A stretch of DNA of 64,000 bases from Thermotoga caldifontis AZM44c09. Lineage in GTDB: Bacteria; Thermotogota; Thermotogae; Thermotogales; DSM-5069. The notes under the pieces were generated by a model, which saw only the letters and a list, made by a program, of their open reading frames with translations, did not search any database and was not told the DNA's origin. The DNA lies in NCBI RefSeq assembly GCF_000828655.1, contig NZ_AP014509.1:496001-560000 (forward strand), given 5' to 3'. Every line of letters begins with the position of its first letter. Within the stretch, counting starts at the first letter, position 1. The position numbers and the translations under genes were made by a program. Below are positions 21,391 to 28,493 of this stretch, one piece after another.

Positions 21391-22320
21391 TCACACCTCC
21401 GTGTAAAGATGGCATCTCACTTTTCGACCTCTGAAATCTATCAGCGGTGGTTTCTCACTGCATTTGCTGAAGGCAAAATCACACCTCGTTCTGAAGGGAC
21501 ACCCTTCAGGTGGGTTCAGTGGGCTGGGTATCTCACCTTTGAGAGAAAAATCCTTCAGCTTGTTTGCTTCGAGGGTCGGAATAGCGGCAACGAGGGCCTT
21601 GGTGTACGGATGCAATGGTTCCTCCAAGATTTTCTGCGTCTCTCCCATCTCCATGATTTGGCCAAGGTACATCACCATGGTTTGATCCGATATATGGTAC
21701 GCAATTTTCAAATCGTGCGTGATGAGGATGTAAGTTAGCGAATACGACTGTTTGAGATCTATCAAAAGATTCAGTATTTGCGCCTGAACTGAAACGTCCA
21801 GTGCCGACGTGGGTTCGTCCAGGATGAGCAATTTCGGCTTCAAGACGAGACATCTTGCTATCGCCACTCTCTGCTTTTGTCCACCGCTCAGCTGGTGAGG
21901 ATACTTCCATAGCACATCTTCAGTCAATCCCACAGCTCTGAGTGTTTCGTAAACGAGTTTCTTTCTCTCTTCTCTGTTGGCTACCCTGTGTATCCTCAGT
22001 CCTTCTTCTATACTGAACAAAATGGTTTTGCGCGGATCGAGAGAACTCTCTGGATCCTGGAAAACCATCTGTATCTGACCGGATCTTTTCAAAGGTGATC
22101 CCATGAAGTGTATCGAACCGGTTGTAGGTTTGTATATACCGCAGAGTATGCGAGCAATAGTAGATTTGCCGGACCCACTCTCACCAACGATGCTGAACAC
22201 ACTCTTTTCTTTCACAGTGAACGACACGTCCTGAACAGCTCTAAGAAACTTAACAGGCCTACCAAGAATATCAAATTCGATAGCGAACTCTTTTGAGAGA
22301 TTTTCAACTCTCAGAATCAT
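21391..22320 (-). CDS. Oligopeptide-type ABC transporter ATP-binding protein (OppF/DppF)
   Basis: 309 residues. Complete ATPase: Walker A GESGSGKST, Q-loop QMVFQDPESSLDPR, signature LSGGQKQR, Walker B LLILDEPTSALD, switch His in ITHDL. The C-terminal oligopeptide/dipeptide domain with HPYTKALVAAIP and four cysteines near CPFRTRCDFAFSKC is typical of the OppF/DppF half. ATG follows directly after the oppD-type stop. It partners with the genes at 22321, 24456 and 25265. Confidence 0.95.
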   Translation of the reverse strand: MILRVENLSKEFAIEFDILGRPVKFLRAVQDVSFTVKEKSVFSIVGESGSGKSTIARILCGIYKPTTGSIHFMGSPLKRSGQIQMVFQDPESSLDPRKTILFSIEEGLRIHRVANREERKKLVYETLRAVGLTEDVLWKYPHQLSGGQKQRVAIARCLVLKPKLLILDEPTSALDVSVQAQILNLLIDLKQSYSLTYILITHDLKIAYHISDQTMVMYLGQIMEMGETQKILEEPLHPYTKALVAAIPTLEANKLKDFSLKGEIPSPLNPPEGCPFRTRCDFAFSKCSEKPPLIDFRGRKVRCHLYTEV

Positions 22321-23280
22321 TCAGACCCCCGCTTTCTCGTACAGCCAGCATTTTACGAACCGTTCCTGCGTCCAAATTTCAGGGGGATCTTGTCGAGTGC
22401 AAATTTCAAGTCTTTTGTCACAGCGAGGATGAAACCGACACCCTGACGGTGGACTCAATGGGCTTGGGACATTGCCTTCAATGGAGTGTAGTTTCGATTC
22501 TCTCTTCTTCAAATCTGGAATGGAACTGATCAATCCCTGAGTGTAAGGATGAAGGGGAGCCGTGAAAAGCTTTCTCGTTGGTGATATCTCGCAAATTTTT
22601 CCAGCGTACATCACGATGACTTTGTCTGCTATCTGAGCTACCAGGCTTAAATCGTGGCTTATGAAAAGTATCGAAGTTTTCGAGCTGCATTTCAACTGCC
22701 TGAACAGTTGCATGATCTGTGCCTGTATCGTGACGTCCAACGCGGTGGTTGGCTCGTCAGCGATGAGCAGCTTTGGTTCACATAACATGGCCATCGCGAT
22801 CATTGCCCTTTGCCTCATGCCACCACTGTATTCGAACGGATATCTCTCGAGCATTTCCTCTGCTTCGAAAATGCCCAGCTTTGTCATTGTTTCTATGACT
22901 TTCTTTCTTGCTTCTTCTTTGCTCATTTTGAAGTTTTCAATCAGCACTTCGCACAGTTGCTGGCCTATTTTCATGTTGGGGTTCAGGGAATTGAGAGGAT
23001 TCTGAAACACCATGCTCATCTTTCTTCCTCGTGGATGATCTTCAGTGCTGGTTATATCGATTCCATCGAAAACGATTCTCCCGGTGGTAATTCTTGCATT
23101 TTTAGGTAGAAGCCCCATAATTGCCAAAGCTGTGACGCTCTTTCCAGAACCGCTCTCTCCAACAAGACCGACGCACTCACCTTCAAACACAGTGAAAGAA
23201 ACGCCGTCGGGAACACGAAATCTTGCAAATCTGCTTTTGAATTCAATTGCGAGGTTCTCAACGAGAAGGAGGGACTTCAA
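22321..23280 (-). CDS. Oligopeptide-type ABC transporter ATP-binding protein (OppD/DppD)
   Basis: 319 residues. Walker A GESGSGKSV, Q-loop MVFQNPLNSLNP, signature YSGGMRQR, Walker B LLIADEPTTALD and ISHDL switch are all intact; the C-terminal HPYTQGLISSIPDL and GCRFHPRCDKRLEIC segments match the OppD/DppD subfamily, where an iron-sulfur-type cysteine cluster is often found. Overlaps the M20 gene by four bases and abuts the oppF-type gene, so all transporter subunits come from one transcript. Confidence 0.95.
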   Translation of the reverse strand: MKSLLLVENLAIEFKSRFARFRVPDGVSFTVFEGECVGLVGESGSGKSVTALAIMGLLPKNARITTGRIVFDGIDITSTEDHPRGRKMSMVFQNPLNSLNPNMKIGQQLCEVLIENFKMSKEEARKKVIETMTKLGIFEAEEMLERYPFEYSGGMRQRAMIAMAMLCEPKLLIADEPTTALDVTIQAQIMQLFRQLKCSSKTSILFISHDLSLVAQIADKVIVMYAGKICEISPTRKLFTAPLHPYTQGLISSIPDLKKRESKLHSIEGNVPSPLSPPSGCRFHPRCDKRLEICTRQDPPEIWTQERFVKCWLYEKAGV

Positions 23281-24443
23281 AACTCCCTCCTCCTTTCTTG
23301 AAAGTACTGCTTCACTTCCTGGAGAAATCTTTCGTCCGTCATGAGATCATACACGGTGAAAGCGAGAGCCTTAGTGGCTCGTATCATGGCTCTGTAACCA
23401 TACTGCGAGTTTGCTGCCTTCGCGAATTCTCTTGTGTGGGTGGGTATGGTCTTCTCACCCGTGATGTTTATGTATGCATGGATCGTTGGTACTACATGAC
23501 TCACAGCACCTGTGTCTGTTGAGCCGACCCCTTGTTCGTACGTTCTTGGACTCACTCTTTCTCCAACCAATCTATAGTTCTCTTCGAGTTTTCTGGCTAA
23601 TGGTACGTTCACGTACACTTCCGGCATTTCTTCAGCAAGGCTTATCCGTCCATCGCAACCAGTCATCCTTGCCGCGCTTAAAACAATCTCGCGGAACCTT
23701 TCTTCGAGCTCTTCAACCTGTTCCATCCTCAAGGCCCTGATCGCAAGTTCTGCACTGGTATACTCAGGGATCGTGTTGAAAGATTGACCACCATTTGTTA
23801 TAATTCCGTGTATCCTGACCTTCTCTGGAAGCTGTTGCCTCCAGAGTCCTATCGCGTTGAACATAAGAATGAGAGCATCTAAAGCGTTCCTCCCACTCGC
23901 TGGATCTGCTGCTGCGTGTGCGGATTTTCCAAAAAACTCCACCACGTACCGGCGGATCGCGTAGGCTATATCAAAGCCAGTACTCATCGACGCGGGATGT
24001 ATCATCATCGCAACGTCTACATCGTCGAAAATCCCGGCATTGATCAGTTGCTTTTTTCCCGCCCCTCTCTCCTCTGCCGGACAACCCACAACTACCACGC
24101 TACAAGGCAACTCACCCAGTGCCTTCTTGACAGCAACAGCAGCTCCACAACTCATAACGCCTATCATATTGTGCCCACATGCATGGCCTATCTCCGGGAG
24201 AGCGTCATATTCTGCGAGCAAGGCGATCCTTGGCCTTCCTCCTCCTGTTTCTGCCAGGAAAGCGGTCTTCAAACCCGCAATGTTCTTTTTGACCATGAAA
24301 CCGTTTTGCTTCAGAAAATCGACGAGCAGCTTTGAAGATTCTTTCTCCTCATAAGAGAGCTCTGCAATTTTGAATATCTTTTTCGCCAGATCGATTAATT
24401 CTTCTTTCATTGAGTCCACAACCTGTGCGATCTTTTCCTTCAT
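23277..24443 (-). CDS. M20D-type amidohydrolase/peptidase
   Basis: 388 residues, cytosolic. Metal ligands of the M20 family are visible: GHACGHN (His, Cys, His), PAEERGAGK with the catalytic Glu pair, MIHPASMS with a His, and a C-terminal PTHTREF-type His. The dimerisation domain begins near SAHAAADPASGRNALDA. The HACGHN form points to the M20D/AbgB-like group, which cleaves N-acyl or p-aminobenzoyl amino acids and dipeptides. Sitting inside the Dpp operon between dppC and oppD, it most likely hydrolyses the imported compound. Confidence 0.92.
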   Translation of the reverse strand: MKEKIAQVVDSMKEELIDLAKKIFKIAELSYEEKESSKLLVDFLKQNGFMVKKNIAGLKTAFLAETGGGRPRIALLAEYDALPEIGHACGHNMIGVMSCGAAVAVKKALGELPCSVVVVGCPAEERGAGKKQLINAGIFDDVDVAMMIHPASMSTGFDIAYAIRRYVVEFFGKSAHAAADPASGRNALDALILMFNAIGLWRQQLPEKVRIHGIITNGGQSFNTIPEYTSAELAIRALRMEQVEELEERFREIVLSAARMTGCDGRISLAEEMPEVYVNVPLARKLEENYRLVGERVSPRTYEQGVGSTDTGAVSHVVPTIHAYINITGEKTIPTHTREFAKAANSQYGYRAMIRATKALAFTVYDLMTDERFLQEVKQYFQERRREF

Positions 24444-24455
24444 TTTTTCTCCCCC

Positions 24456-25268
24456 TCAGCTCTTCAGTCTTGGATCCAGAAGATCTCTCAAACCGTCACC
24501 AAGTACATTGAACCCAAGGCAGGTTAGTAAGATTGCGAATCCGGGAAATATTGCCATGTGTGGCGCTGTCTGCAAGTAGTTTCTGGCCTCCGCGAGCATG
24601 CTTCCCCACGAGGGCGTAGGAGGTTGAATACCTAAACCTAAAAAACTCAGTGTCGCTTCGCTTATTACCGCCCCGGAGAAGTTGAGGGAACTGTACACGA
24701 TCAAAACTGGTACGATGTTGGGTATGACGTGGTGGAAAATGATCCACAAATGTGATGCTCCGAGTGCCCGTGCAGCCAGCACAAATTCTTCGCTTTTGAT
24801 GTTTAAAACGGCGCTTCTGACAATTCTTGAAAAGCTCGGTACCATGACTATTCCTATCGCCAGCATCGCATTGAACAAACCCGCCCCAAGAACAGCCATC
24901 ATAGCAATGGCCAACAGCACATAAGGGAAAGATAAGAGGGCATCCATGAACCTCATGAGAACGGCATCGAAAAGACCCCCGAAGTAACCTGCGATGATCC
25001 CCAGAACTGTTCCAACCAAAGCACCTATGCCTACCGCGATGACACCGACAATCAGTGAGATGCGACTACCGTATATGAGTCTCGAGAATATGTCCCTACC
25101 GTAGTCGTCGGTGCCCAGAATGTGTCCCCCTTCTCCAGGTTTCGCGAAAATGTACAAAAAATCCATCTCGTCGACTTCATGAGTCGCTATGAGTGGAGCA
25201 AAAACGGCGAGAAGAACATTCAGAACAACTATTGAAAGGCCGAACACGATCTGTTTGTTCATCCTCAA
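24456..25268 (-). CDS. Dipeptide-type ABC transporter permease (DppC)
   Basis: 270 residues with about six membrane helices. The N-terminal helix is followed by a short external loop with GTDDYGRDIFSRLIYGSR, the family hallmark, then the BPD_transp_1 core with the EAA loop AARALGASHLWIIFHHVIPN that contacts the ATPases, and ATLSFLGLGIQPPTPSWG near the end. Start overlaps the dppB stop by four bases. Confidence 0.94.
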   Translation of the reverse strand: MRMNKQIVFGLSIVVLNVLLAVFAPLIATHEVDEMDFLYIFAKPGEGGHILGTDDYGRDIFSRLIYGSRISLIVGVIAVGIGALVGTVLGIIAGYFGGLFDAVLMRFMDALLSFPYVLLAIAMMAVLGAGLFNAMLAIGIVMVPSFSRIVRSAVLNIKSEEFVLAARALGASHLWIIFHHVIPNIVPVLIVYSSLNFSGAVISEATLSFLGLGIQPPTPSWGSMLAEARNYLQTAPHMAIFPGFAILLTCLGFNVLGDGLRDLLDPRLKS

Positions 25269-26224
25269 AGACCACCCCTGTAACTCTGCCTGATCTTGGG
25301 ATTTATGAACGCATAAGCTATGTCTACAGCTAAATTCACAAAGATGTACATGATTGCCGTGAAGAGAACCTCACCTTGTACGAGCATATAGTCACGCCTG
25401 AAGATCCCATCAACCATGAGTTTTCCAAGTCCAGGGAGTGCAAACACTGTTTCTGTCAGAACAGCCCCCGCGAGCAGATTTCCCAGCTGCAAACCTATGA
25501 CTGTTATGACGGGAACAAGAGCATTTCTCAGAGCATGTCTGTAGAGGATAAGACTCTTTCGGAGTCCTTTTGCGTAAGCGGTCCTTATGTAGTCCTGATT
25601 CAGTACCTCGAGCATGCTTGAGCGTGTGAAGCGAGCGATCGTTCCAGTGGAGAGAATTCCAAGTGCGAGTGATGGGAGAACGAAGTGACTCACGACATCC
25701 CAGAGCCCTTTGTTTGGATCACCGAGCCCAACAGCGGGAAGCCATCCGAGTTTGAGGGAGAAGATTATGATGAGGATCATCCCGAACCAGAAGATTGGTA
25801 TAGAAAGCCCCATCAGAGCCAGAATAGTCACGAGTAGATCGACTAAGGAGTTGTGCTTTATCGCTGCCAAGACCCCAGCAGGTATACCTATGCTCACGGC
25901 GATTGTCAGGGCGCACAGACTCAGCATGATCGTGACGGGTAGTCTTTCCAGGATCAATGAGAGTACGCTCTGCCTGTAGATGAGTGATACCCCAAGATCA
26001 CCCGTAATCACTCTCTTCACATAAACCAAGAACTGAATCAACAGAGGCTTGTCCAGGCCAAGCTCCCGTCTGAATCTGGCTATATCTTCAGCACGCGCCT
26101 GCGGACCCAGTAAGACCATCGCCGGATCGCCCGGGATAAGTTTCATCAAAAGAAAGGCCGTCAGAATGACGAAGAAGAGCGTGGGTATGATCTGAATGAT
26201 TCTTTTGGAAATGTATTTCCCCAT
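25265..26224 (-). CDS. Dipeptide-type ABC transporter permease (DppB)
   Basis: 319 residues with about six membrane helices. DppB features: N-terminal MGKYISKRIIQIIPTL-type helix, the periplasmic DPAMVLLGPQA loop, GDLGVSLIYRQSV, and the cytoplasmic EAA loop with TAYAKGLRKSLILYRHALRNAL. Forms the membrane channel together with the DppC-type permease at 24456-25268. Separated from the binding-protein gene by a 42-bp spacer with a strong stem-loop. Confidence 0.94.
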   Translation of the reverse strand: MGKYISKRIIQIIPTLFFVILTAFLLMKLIPGDPAMVLLGPQARAEDIARFRRELGLDKPLLIQFLVYVKRVITGDLGVSLIYRQSVLSLILERLPVTIMLSLCALTIAVSIGIPAGVLAAIKHNSLVDLLVTILALMGLSIPIFWFGMILIIIFSLKLGWLPAVGLGDPNKGLWDVVSHFVLPSLALGILSTGTIARFTRSSMLEVLNQDYIRTAYAKGLRKSLILYRHALRNALVPVITVIGLQLGNLLAGAVLTETVFALPGLGKLMVDGIFRRDYMLVQGEVLFTAIMYIFVNLAVDIAYAFINPKIRQSYRGGL

Positions 26225-26266: not shown

Positions 26267-27805
26267 TCACTTTTCGACCCACACGTTTGTGCCCGGTGCG
26301 TACAGTCTGATCATCATGTCAGGCGAGGGTTTGTAACCTCTTACCTTCTTGTTAACACCGTTCACCACCAGCTTGTGCCACAGGGGGAAGTAGTACAAAT
26401 CTTTCATGATGAGTTCTTCTGCTTTTCTGTAGTATTCTACTCTCTTTTCCTGTTCCACACTGGATTCACCCAATTCTATCAATCTGTCAACCTCGGGATT
26501 GTTGTATCCACCACCGTTACCGTAGGTTCCTTTCCTCGAAGAATGGAACATGTAGAAAATGAAGAATTCAGGATCTGGATACCATGTCCACCCTATCGTG
26601 TAAGCATCTGCCTCGCCCTTCGACGTGACAGCAGTGAAAGTGCCCCATTCCAGTGACTGAACTTCGATTTCAAAACCCACTTTCTTCAACATCGACTGAA
26701 TGATGACGGCAGCCTTTCTTCGGTTCGGATCCTCAGGCGTATAAATGGTCATCTTCACTGGTTTGCCGTCGTAGCCTGCCTCCTTAAGCAACTGTTTAGC
26801 CTTCTCTGGATCGTATCCTGTATAGAAAGATTTCACATCCGGATTGTACGCCCAGGATCCCGGTGGTATGGGGCCATAAGCCGCAACGCCTGTCCCATTG
26901 GGGAATATGACCTTGACAAGCTGTTCGATATCAATACCCCTGAAAAACGCTTCTCTGACTCTCTTATCCGTGGTAGGACCCTTCATAGAGTTCATGTAGA
27001 CTGCGTAGACGTTGCAACCGCCAACCATCATTGCCTCGACGTTCGGATTAGACTTCAATTTTGGAATATCCTGATCGAGGACATCGCTGGTTATATCCAC
27101 TTCTCCGCTGAGTAACGCCATCGTCAGGACAGACTTATCTGGTATGAACTTGTACACGATCTGCTTCAGATAGGGCTTTTCACCCCAGTAATCCTCGTTC
27201 CTTTCGAAGACCATGTGACTGTCTTTGACCCATTCCACCATTCTGAAAGGCCCAGTTCCCACAGGATGTAGTGTGAATTGGTCCTTCCAACCCTCGCACT
27301 CTTCTTTTGGTACAATGGCGGCTCCGATGTCGGTGAGTACTGTCAGAAATGGCGCGTACGGGTACTTGAGTACGATCTTCACAGTGTAGCGATCGATGAC
27401 TTCCACGTGATCCACCATGTACAGCCTCACCATAGGTGAGATGGCTATTTCTCTATCGAAACTGTACTTCACGTCTTCTGCTGTGACCTCTCTACCGTCT
27501 TGGAACTTGCCTTTCTGGAAATGGACCCCTTTCCTTAGCTTGAAAGTCCATTCCTTGAGATCTGGACTGACTTCCCAAGACTCCGCAAGCAATGGATGAA
27601 TTTGTTTGACTTCTGCGTCATAAGCCACGAGCGTTTCAAAGACATTTCTCATGACCTGTGCCGAGGCGAGATCCTGATACATTGCTGGATCCATCGTCGT
27701 CGGGTTCTGATCTGAACCTACGCGGATCACTGAGTCGTAGTTCGGTGCAGAAATCACGGTAGCGAAAAATGCCACTACGGCGACCAACACTGCCAGCCTT
27801 TTCAC
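26267..27805 (-). CDS. Family 5 extracellular solute-binding protein (Dpp/Opp type)
   Basis: 512 residues from GTG 27803-27805, set by AAGGGGGT just upstream (ATG 27812 overlaps it). Signal peptide: VKRLAVLVAVVAFFATVISA. SBP_bac_5 features: QNPTTMDPAMYQD, LAESWEVSPDLKEWTFKLRKGVHFQ, DVKYSFDRE, GTGPFRMVEW and TDKRVREAFFRGIDIEQLV. It captures the substrate outside the membrane for the DppBC/OppDF complex. In Thermotogae proteins of this family bind sugars as well as peptides; the neighbouring amidohydrolase favours an amide or peptide-like ligand here. Confidence 0.95.
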   Translation of the reverse strand: MKRLAVLVAVVAFFATVISAPNYDSVIRVGSDQNPTTMDPAMYQDLASAQVMRNVFETLVAYDAEVKQIHPLLAESWEVSPDLKEWTFKLRKGVHFQKGKFQDGREVTAEDVKYSFDREIAISPMVRLYMVDHVEVIDRYTVKIVLKYPYAPFLTVLTDIGAAIVPKEECEGWKDQFTLHPVGTGPFRMVEWVKDSHMVFERNEDYWGEKPYLKQIVYKFIPDKSVLTMALLSGEVDITSDVLDQDIPKLKSNPNVEAMMVGGCNVYAVYMNSMKGPTTDKRVREAFFRGIDIEQLVKVIFPNGTGVAAYGPIPPGSWAYNPDVKSFYTGYDPEKAKQLLKEAGYDGKPVKMTIYTPEDPNRRKAAVIIQSMLKKVGFEIEVQSLEWGTFTAVTSKGEADAYTIGWTWYPDPEFFIFYMFHSSRKGTYGNGGGYNNPEVDRLIELGESSVEQEKRVEYYRKAEELIMKDLYYFPLWHKLVVNGVNKKVRGYKPSPDMMIRLYAPGTNVWVEK

Positions 27806-27821
27806 CGCATACACCCCCTTT

Positions 27822-28439
27822 TTAAGTTAGAAGGTTCCTCAAATAGTTTGCGAGTATTCTTCGCGCACTCACCACGAAACCGTTGGTTTTGCGCTTAAAA
27901 AACTCCTCGTGTTTCAGTGCGAAACCTATGCAATCGAGGTAAACCAGTTGTTCCTGTGACAGATCAACGCTTAATGTCGATTCTCGATATGGCGAAAAAC
28001 TGGTACAATTCACTCTCTTGGCGATTTTCGCCCATCGTTTCAGAGCATTGGAGCACTGTTCTTTTTCTGGCACGATGACTGTGGCGCGATTCAGCTTTGG
28101 CATGGCAGAGAAGAAGGAGTCTACCACCTTATAGGGTAAAATGAAACGATCGCTATCGAATTCACCAGTGCAAAGAAAGACACATAGTCCCTCGCATTCT
28201 AGCTGAGAAAGTTTCTGAACGATCCAGCGATGGGAAATTCGAACGATGGATCCGTCGCGTTTTCTGCTCACAAGCACGTCGTTCTCATCACGGGGTTTAT
28301 AGATTTCTTCTTCCACGTTTTCTATGAGACCTATTTCGTTGTAAGCCAGGTTTGTATTACCAACGATGTTCAGAAGTTCCGGTATCACGTCATCTCTCGG
28401 AGTCTCACCAATGGTTATGAAAGTTATAGGACCAATCAG
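27822..28439 (-). CDS. AroM family protein, probable CTG (or ATT) start
   Basis: 205 residues if started at CTG 28437-28439. Matches the AroM family: N-terminal TIGETPRDDVIPELL, LVSRKRDGSIVRI, VFLCTGEF, the NRATVIVPEKEQ segment, SPY and the YLDCIGFA motif. The first in-frame ATG/GTG/TTG is GTG 28388, which would remove the conserved TIGxTPR start; GGAGGG at 28448-28453 is instead well placed for CTG 28437 or ATT 28434, with an in-frame TAA just upstream. AroM itself has no known reaction; the Cys in CTGEF and LDCIG recall the paired cysteines of Asp/Glu racemases, an inference. First gene of the Dpp operon. Confidence 0.8.
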   Translation of the reverse strand: MIGPITFITIGETPRDDVIPELLNIVGNTNLAYNEIGLIENVEEEIYKPRDENDVLVSRKRDGSIVRISHRWIVQKLSQLECEGLCVFLCTGEFDSDRFILPYKVVDSFFSAMPKLNRATVIVPEKEQCSNALKRWAKIAKRVNCTSFSPYRESTLSVDLSQEQLVYLDCIGFALKHEEFFKRKTNGFVVSARRILANYLRNLLT

Positions 28440-28463
28440 GCAGGAACCCTCCTTTTTTGTTTA

Positions 28464-28493
28464 ATTATAATAAACGCCGTATAGAAATGTCAA
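28464..28493 (-). promoter_or_regulatory. Consensus sigma-A promoter of the aroM-Dpp operon
   Basis: Minus strand TTGACA (28488-28493), an 18-bp spacer and TATAAT (28464-28469), both hexamers perfect. Transcription would start near 28457, close before the GGAGGG ribosome binding site, leaving almost no leader. Confidence 0.8.

Follow-up and report, generated by a model that had tools for sequence, protein, structure and literature searches.

In Escherichia coli, infC has an AUU-type start codon and is subject to feedback by IF3. Here, we examined an aroM gene in a stretch of 64,000 nucleotides from Thermotoga caldifontis AZM44c09 (the window). Like infC, it has a strong Shine-Dalgarno (SD) sequence followed by a codon other than ATG/GTG/TTG, an arrangement that the genome's own infC shows as well. 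However, AroM is not a translation factor, the proposed start is CTG, and IF3 feedback is a feature of infC. A near-cognate CTG in place of a canonical start, combined with a stronger SD, also links aroM to the start-codon switches of Belinky et al. (2017), who found changes to CUG at 1 of 2,468 ancestral UUG starts and 2 of 61,358 AUG starts and reported that stronger SDs tend to accompany weaker start codons (PMC5622118). These switches are very rare, whereas the CTG of aroM is common to two species. In structures of E. coli ribosomes with a tRNA-fMet variant, the initiator pairs with the U and G of CUG and a weak first pair is tolerated; CUG is nevertheless inefficient on these ribosomes, which counts against a CTG start (PMC11497404).

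The aroM frame and its N-terminal motif

The start region and coding sequence comprise the following features:

28464..28493, minus strand: promoter-like TTGACA-18 nt-TATAAT, 12/12 matches; predicted mRNA start at ~28457
28461..28463, minus strand: in-frame TAA, upstream bound of the aroM frame, read from the sequence; identical TAA in the sister genome
28448..28455, minus strand: Shine-Dalgarno AAAGGAGG, 8 nt before CTG; duplex with the 16S 3' end of -12.7 kcal/mol
28437..28439, minus strand: CTG, proposed aroM start codon; same in the sister genome, aligned with TTG of two congeners, modal SD spacing
28434..28436, minus strand: ATT, second-best start candidate, read from the sequence; SD spacing of 11 nt, rare in the genome
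28386..28388, minus strand: GTG, first in-frame canonical codon (residue 18), rejected as start; 3' of the invariant TIG..PR.D
27822..28439, minus strand: aroM coding sequence, 205 amino acids plus stop; PF07302

On the minus strand, positions 28463-28386 read TAA ACA AAA AAG GAG GGT TCC TGC CTG ATT GGT CCT ATA ACT TTC ATA, continuing to 28386 with ACC ATT GGT GAG ACT CCG AGA GAT GAC GTG. No ATG, GTG, or TTG occurs in the aroM frame between TAA 28463-28461 and GTG 28388. This read bears out the first-pass annotation, which had placed TIGETPRDD 5' of the first in-frame canonical codon (GTG 28388) and had named CTG and ATT as initiator candidates after the TAA; its positions 28437 and 28434 mark the lowest-numbered base of each codon. 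From the -10 box to the motif, ATG and GTG are absent in every frame, and the sole TTG (28435-28433) is out of frame. A short frame, TTG GTC CTA TAA (28424-28435, minus strand), overlaps the aroM start, is identical in the sister genome, and could compete for initiation. Entry into aroM by frameshifting from this TTG was rejected on reading the sequence, as TAA is reached after three codons and a slippery site is absent.

The product matches the Pfam AroM family (PF07302) over the full length of the profile (positions 1-219; E=1.6e-31; 110 bits versus a cut-off of 23.8). Compared with this family, the window protein has a non-canonical start, and the N terminus of relatives starting with ATG is four residues shorter. 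The motif TIG..PR.D is translated from CTG or ATT and lost from GTG 28388. Alignment with AroM homologues, which had been suggested as a check, showed the TIG..PR residues to be invariant across eleven relatives, the invariant positions T9, I10, G11, P14, R15, and D17 all lying before residue 18. In 77 of 80 further homologues, a canonical start is found within 15 codons before the motif; the three exceptions comprise a frame that is longer or fused, a homologue whose ATG lies 28 codons upstream, and a possible second CTG case.

Initiation at GTG 28388, the first canonical codon and the choice of a mechanical gene caller, would give a truncated AroM in both species and leave the upstream motif, including the segment IGPITFITIGETPR, untranslated. 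It is a poor start because the invariant residues and strand beta1 (residues 5-9 in the AlphaFold2 model; mean pLDDT 93) would be lost and an SD is almost absent (-5.2 kcal/mol versus -12.7 kcal/mol at the aroM leader). Moreover, the start lies ahead of the motif in nearly all relatives, and the codons 5' of GTG 28388 diverge synonymously only. In the 12 codons FITIGETPRDDV up to this GTG, 8 base differences separate the window from one congener (G004) and 10 from another (G002), all of them synonymous (8:0, p ~8e-6, and 10:0, p ~4e-7, respectively); protein-level selection thus acts 5' of GTG 28388, and we consider a start there scarcely credible. Gene callers limited to ATG/GTG/TTG would trim 17 residues off AroM, and with them strand beta1 and the invariant motif.

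Conservation of the start region and ribosome binding site

In the sister genome (G001), the aroM open reading frame is 93% identical, has the same leader, and likewise lacks a canonical start. There, CTGATTGGTCCT is unchanged although the bases just 5' of it differ, CTGATTGGTCC is kept in the two independent genomes behind TTCCTGC versus TTCCCGG, and CTGATTGGTCCTATAACTTTC is identical between the window and the sister genome. A sequencing error, which the first-pass annotation had named as an alternative, is contradicted by this assembly, which has the same CTG and no canonical start; since the two assemblies are independent and concur, an error is very unlikely. The same judgment applies to a recent null mutation with aroM dying: loss of the canonical start would be the simplest first step of such decay, but the open reading frame is intact, with 29 synonymous versus 13 nonsynonymous changes between the two genomes. 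Because of shared ancestry, the agreement of the two genomes on CTG represents one evolutionary event.

Two other species of the genus (G002 and G004) carry GGAGGTCTTCTC-TTG-ATC-TGC-TTC-ATC-ACC, in which TTG ATC aligns with CTG ATT of the window, and in four species of a neighboring genus (G007-G010) aroM starts with ATG. In these relatives, the CTG is either kept (sister genome) or replaced by a start codon only, TTG in the two congeners and ATG in the neighboring genus. Spanning two genera, this ATG, TTG, CTG series compactly documents start-codon weakening alongside a strong SD in nature and could be used to test compensation and IF3 proofreading in thermophiles. Both CTG species have an aroM SD energy of -12.7 kcal/mol; those with TTG reach -13.3 and -13.4, and those with ATG range from -9.8 to -11.7. 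The stronger SDs of the CTG and TTG species fit the reported trend, although the fit across eight related genes is only suggestive.

The 16S 3' end of the genome is CACCTCCTTTCT, with a standard anti-SD, and only 0.45% of random 17-mers from the genome pair with it as strongly as the aroM SD region, which includes GGAGGG at 28452-28447. GGAGG lies 8 nt from CTG and would lie 11 nt from ATT. In a 464-kb sample, 122 of 227 starts preceded by an SD have a spacing of 7 or 8 nt and 9 a spacing of 11 nt, so that the ideal GGAGGG spacing noted earlier holds for CTG, at the mode.

These data also bear on ATT (28436-28434), an infC-type AUU start that would shorten the protein by one residue. ATT is known to serve as a start codon under IF3 control, it is conserved in the sister genome, and ATC/ATA/ATT are the apparent infC starts in the window genome and most of the order. 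However, its 11-nt spacing is rare, the TTG species have ATC at the aligned position, read as the second codon rather than as the start, and infC of the window genome has the 8-nt spacing of the aroM CTG; we therefore regard initiation at ATT as unlikely. Of the earlier proposal that aroM starts at CTG or ATT rather than at GTG 28388, the exclusion of GTG draws support from conservation, SD spacing, the pattern of selection, and the predicted fold, and the choice it left between the two codons now falls in favor of CTG, which aligns with the TTG of the congeners and has the modal SD spacing.

We conclude that CTG 28439-28437 is the best start of aroM and is probably used by the fMet initiator tRNA with the aid of the near-perfect SD. 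The ordinary initiator tRNA would read CTG with its first-position mismatch tolerated, while the SD at its usual distance would keep the 30S subunit bound to the mRNA, and the long SD would presumably offset weak CUG pairing. The resulting AroM would have 205 residues and begin with fMet (M-IGPITFITIGETPRDD...). The initiator tRNA gene found in the genome has a normal GGG/CCC anticodon stem and a CAT anticodon, which argues against an unusual initiator tRNA. The CTG likely derived by a single T-to-C change from TTG, still present in two congeners, a step that is rare given 1 CUG switch per 2,468 UUG starts (PMC5622118). The mechanism would be ordinary and the codon rare; such starts are uncommon yet known.

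The first-pass annotation had put the mRNA start about 5 nt ahead of GGAGGG, which agrees with the +1 at ~28457 predicted from the 12/12 promoter. The sister genome and one congener (G002) have a comparable -35/-10 arrangement ahead of aroM. A leader of ~18 nt is predicted before CTG, in keeping with the consensus promoter and with Thermotoga maritima, for which mapping defined a class of short 5' untranslated regions (11-17 nt) and detected no leaderless mRNAs (PMC3636130). A hairpin masking the aroM SD was not predicted, as RNA folds did not exceed shuffled sequences (z of 0.46 and 1.56). Inverted half-sites, GTTTA-N7-TAAAC, lie over the -10 box (28459-28475, minus strand; GTTTATTATAATTAAAC), and similar half-sites with varying spacing occur ahead of aroM in relatives; they are possibly an operator or merely reflect an AT-rich promoter.

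Candidate CTG starts in the genome and infC starts in the order

Genome statistics were obtained from a 400-kb sample plus the window (464 kb, 430 nonoverlapping open reading frames). CTG follows a 6-nt SD in 3 of the 430, which equals background, and the two cases besides aroM follow a canonical start. Only aroM has no earlier canonical start and the next one far downstream, and no second convincing CTG start was found in the sample. General use of CTG starts was rejected, since strong SDs are not followed by CTG more often than background and the genome thus lends CTG starts no general support. Outside the genus, aroM of the Spirochaetaceae metagenome-assembled genome UBA6243 (L111:2970-3010, plus strand) has no canonical start and carries a CTG 8 nt after a weak AGG, in frame and at the usual distance from TIGQSPR, possibly an independent CTG start.

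In 25 Thermotogales genomes, including that of the window, infC (encoding IF3) mostly shows ATC/ATA/ATT behind a strong SD before the conserved N terminus; a few have GTG within or beside the SD. The gene of the window genome is located as follows:

L115:1400-2200, minus strand (G000:C1 ~692100): infC with apparent ATC/ATA/ATT start; those of the other genomes at L118-L142

Starts of the type discriminated by IF3 therefore exist in these bacteria, and IF3-type start-codon feedback may be conserved across the whole order. By analogy, the CTG of aroM could itself be under selection, with AroM subject to IF3-dependent proofreading like infC, held low and raised upon IF3 shortage, with normal translation of the transporter genes downstream; we view this as doubtful.

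Operon context and predicted fold of AroM

Genes of a peptide-type ABC transporter lie 3' of aroM on the same strand:

26267..27805, minus strand: family-5 solute-binding protein, first ABC transporter gene; PF00496, E=5.6e-103; likely start GTG 27805
21391..26224, minus strand: two permeases, M20-type peptidase, and two ABC ATPases, from the open reading frame list; M20 by profile match

The permeases and ATPases were named by reading their translations. The solute-binding protein gene has the SD AGGGGGTG and a signal-like N terminus (MKRLAVL...); the gene immediately 3' of aroM in relatives resembles it in its SD and in having a signal-like start. It is plausible, as first suggested, that the weak start could keep AroM low compared with the transporter; the strong SD may instead compensate for it, which the stronger SDs of the CTG and TTG species would also fit. 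Relevant to this idea, the first transporter gene likely starts with GTG itself.

A literature search on AroM found no relevant report on its start codons or on a racemase, and a sequence search of solved structures gave no significant match. The best fold matches in the PDB are Asp/Glu racemase-like (probability 0.99-1.00, E ~1e-3, TM ~0.5, identity 8-15%). The closest predicted fold is that of glutamate racemase, allantoin racemase, and arylmalonate decarboxylase, at an E of only ~1e-3 and a TM of ~0.5. Cys90 and Cys170, invariant in AroM (27825-28439, minus strand), recall a two-cysteine active site; together with the predicted fold, they suggest a possible role for AroM in peptide uptake as a racemase or isomerase that works with two cysteines and no cofactor.
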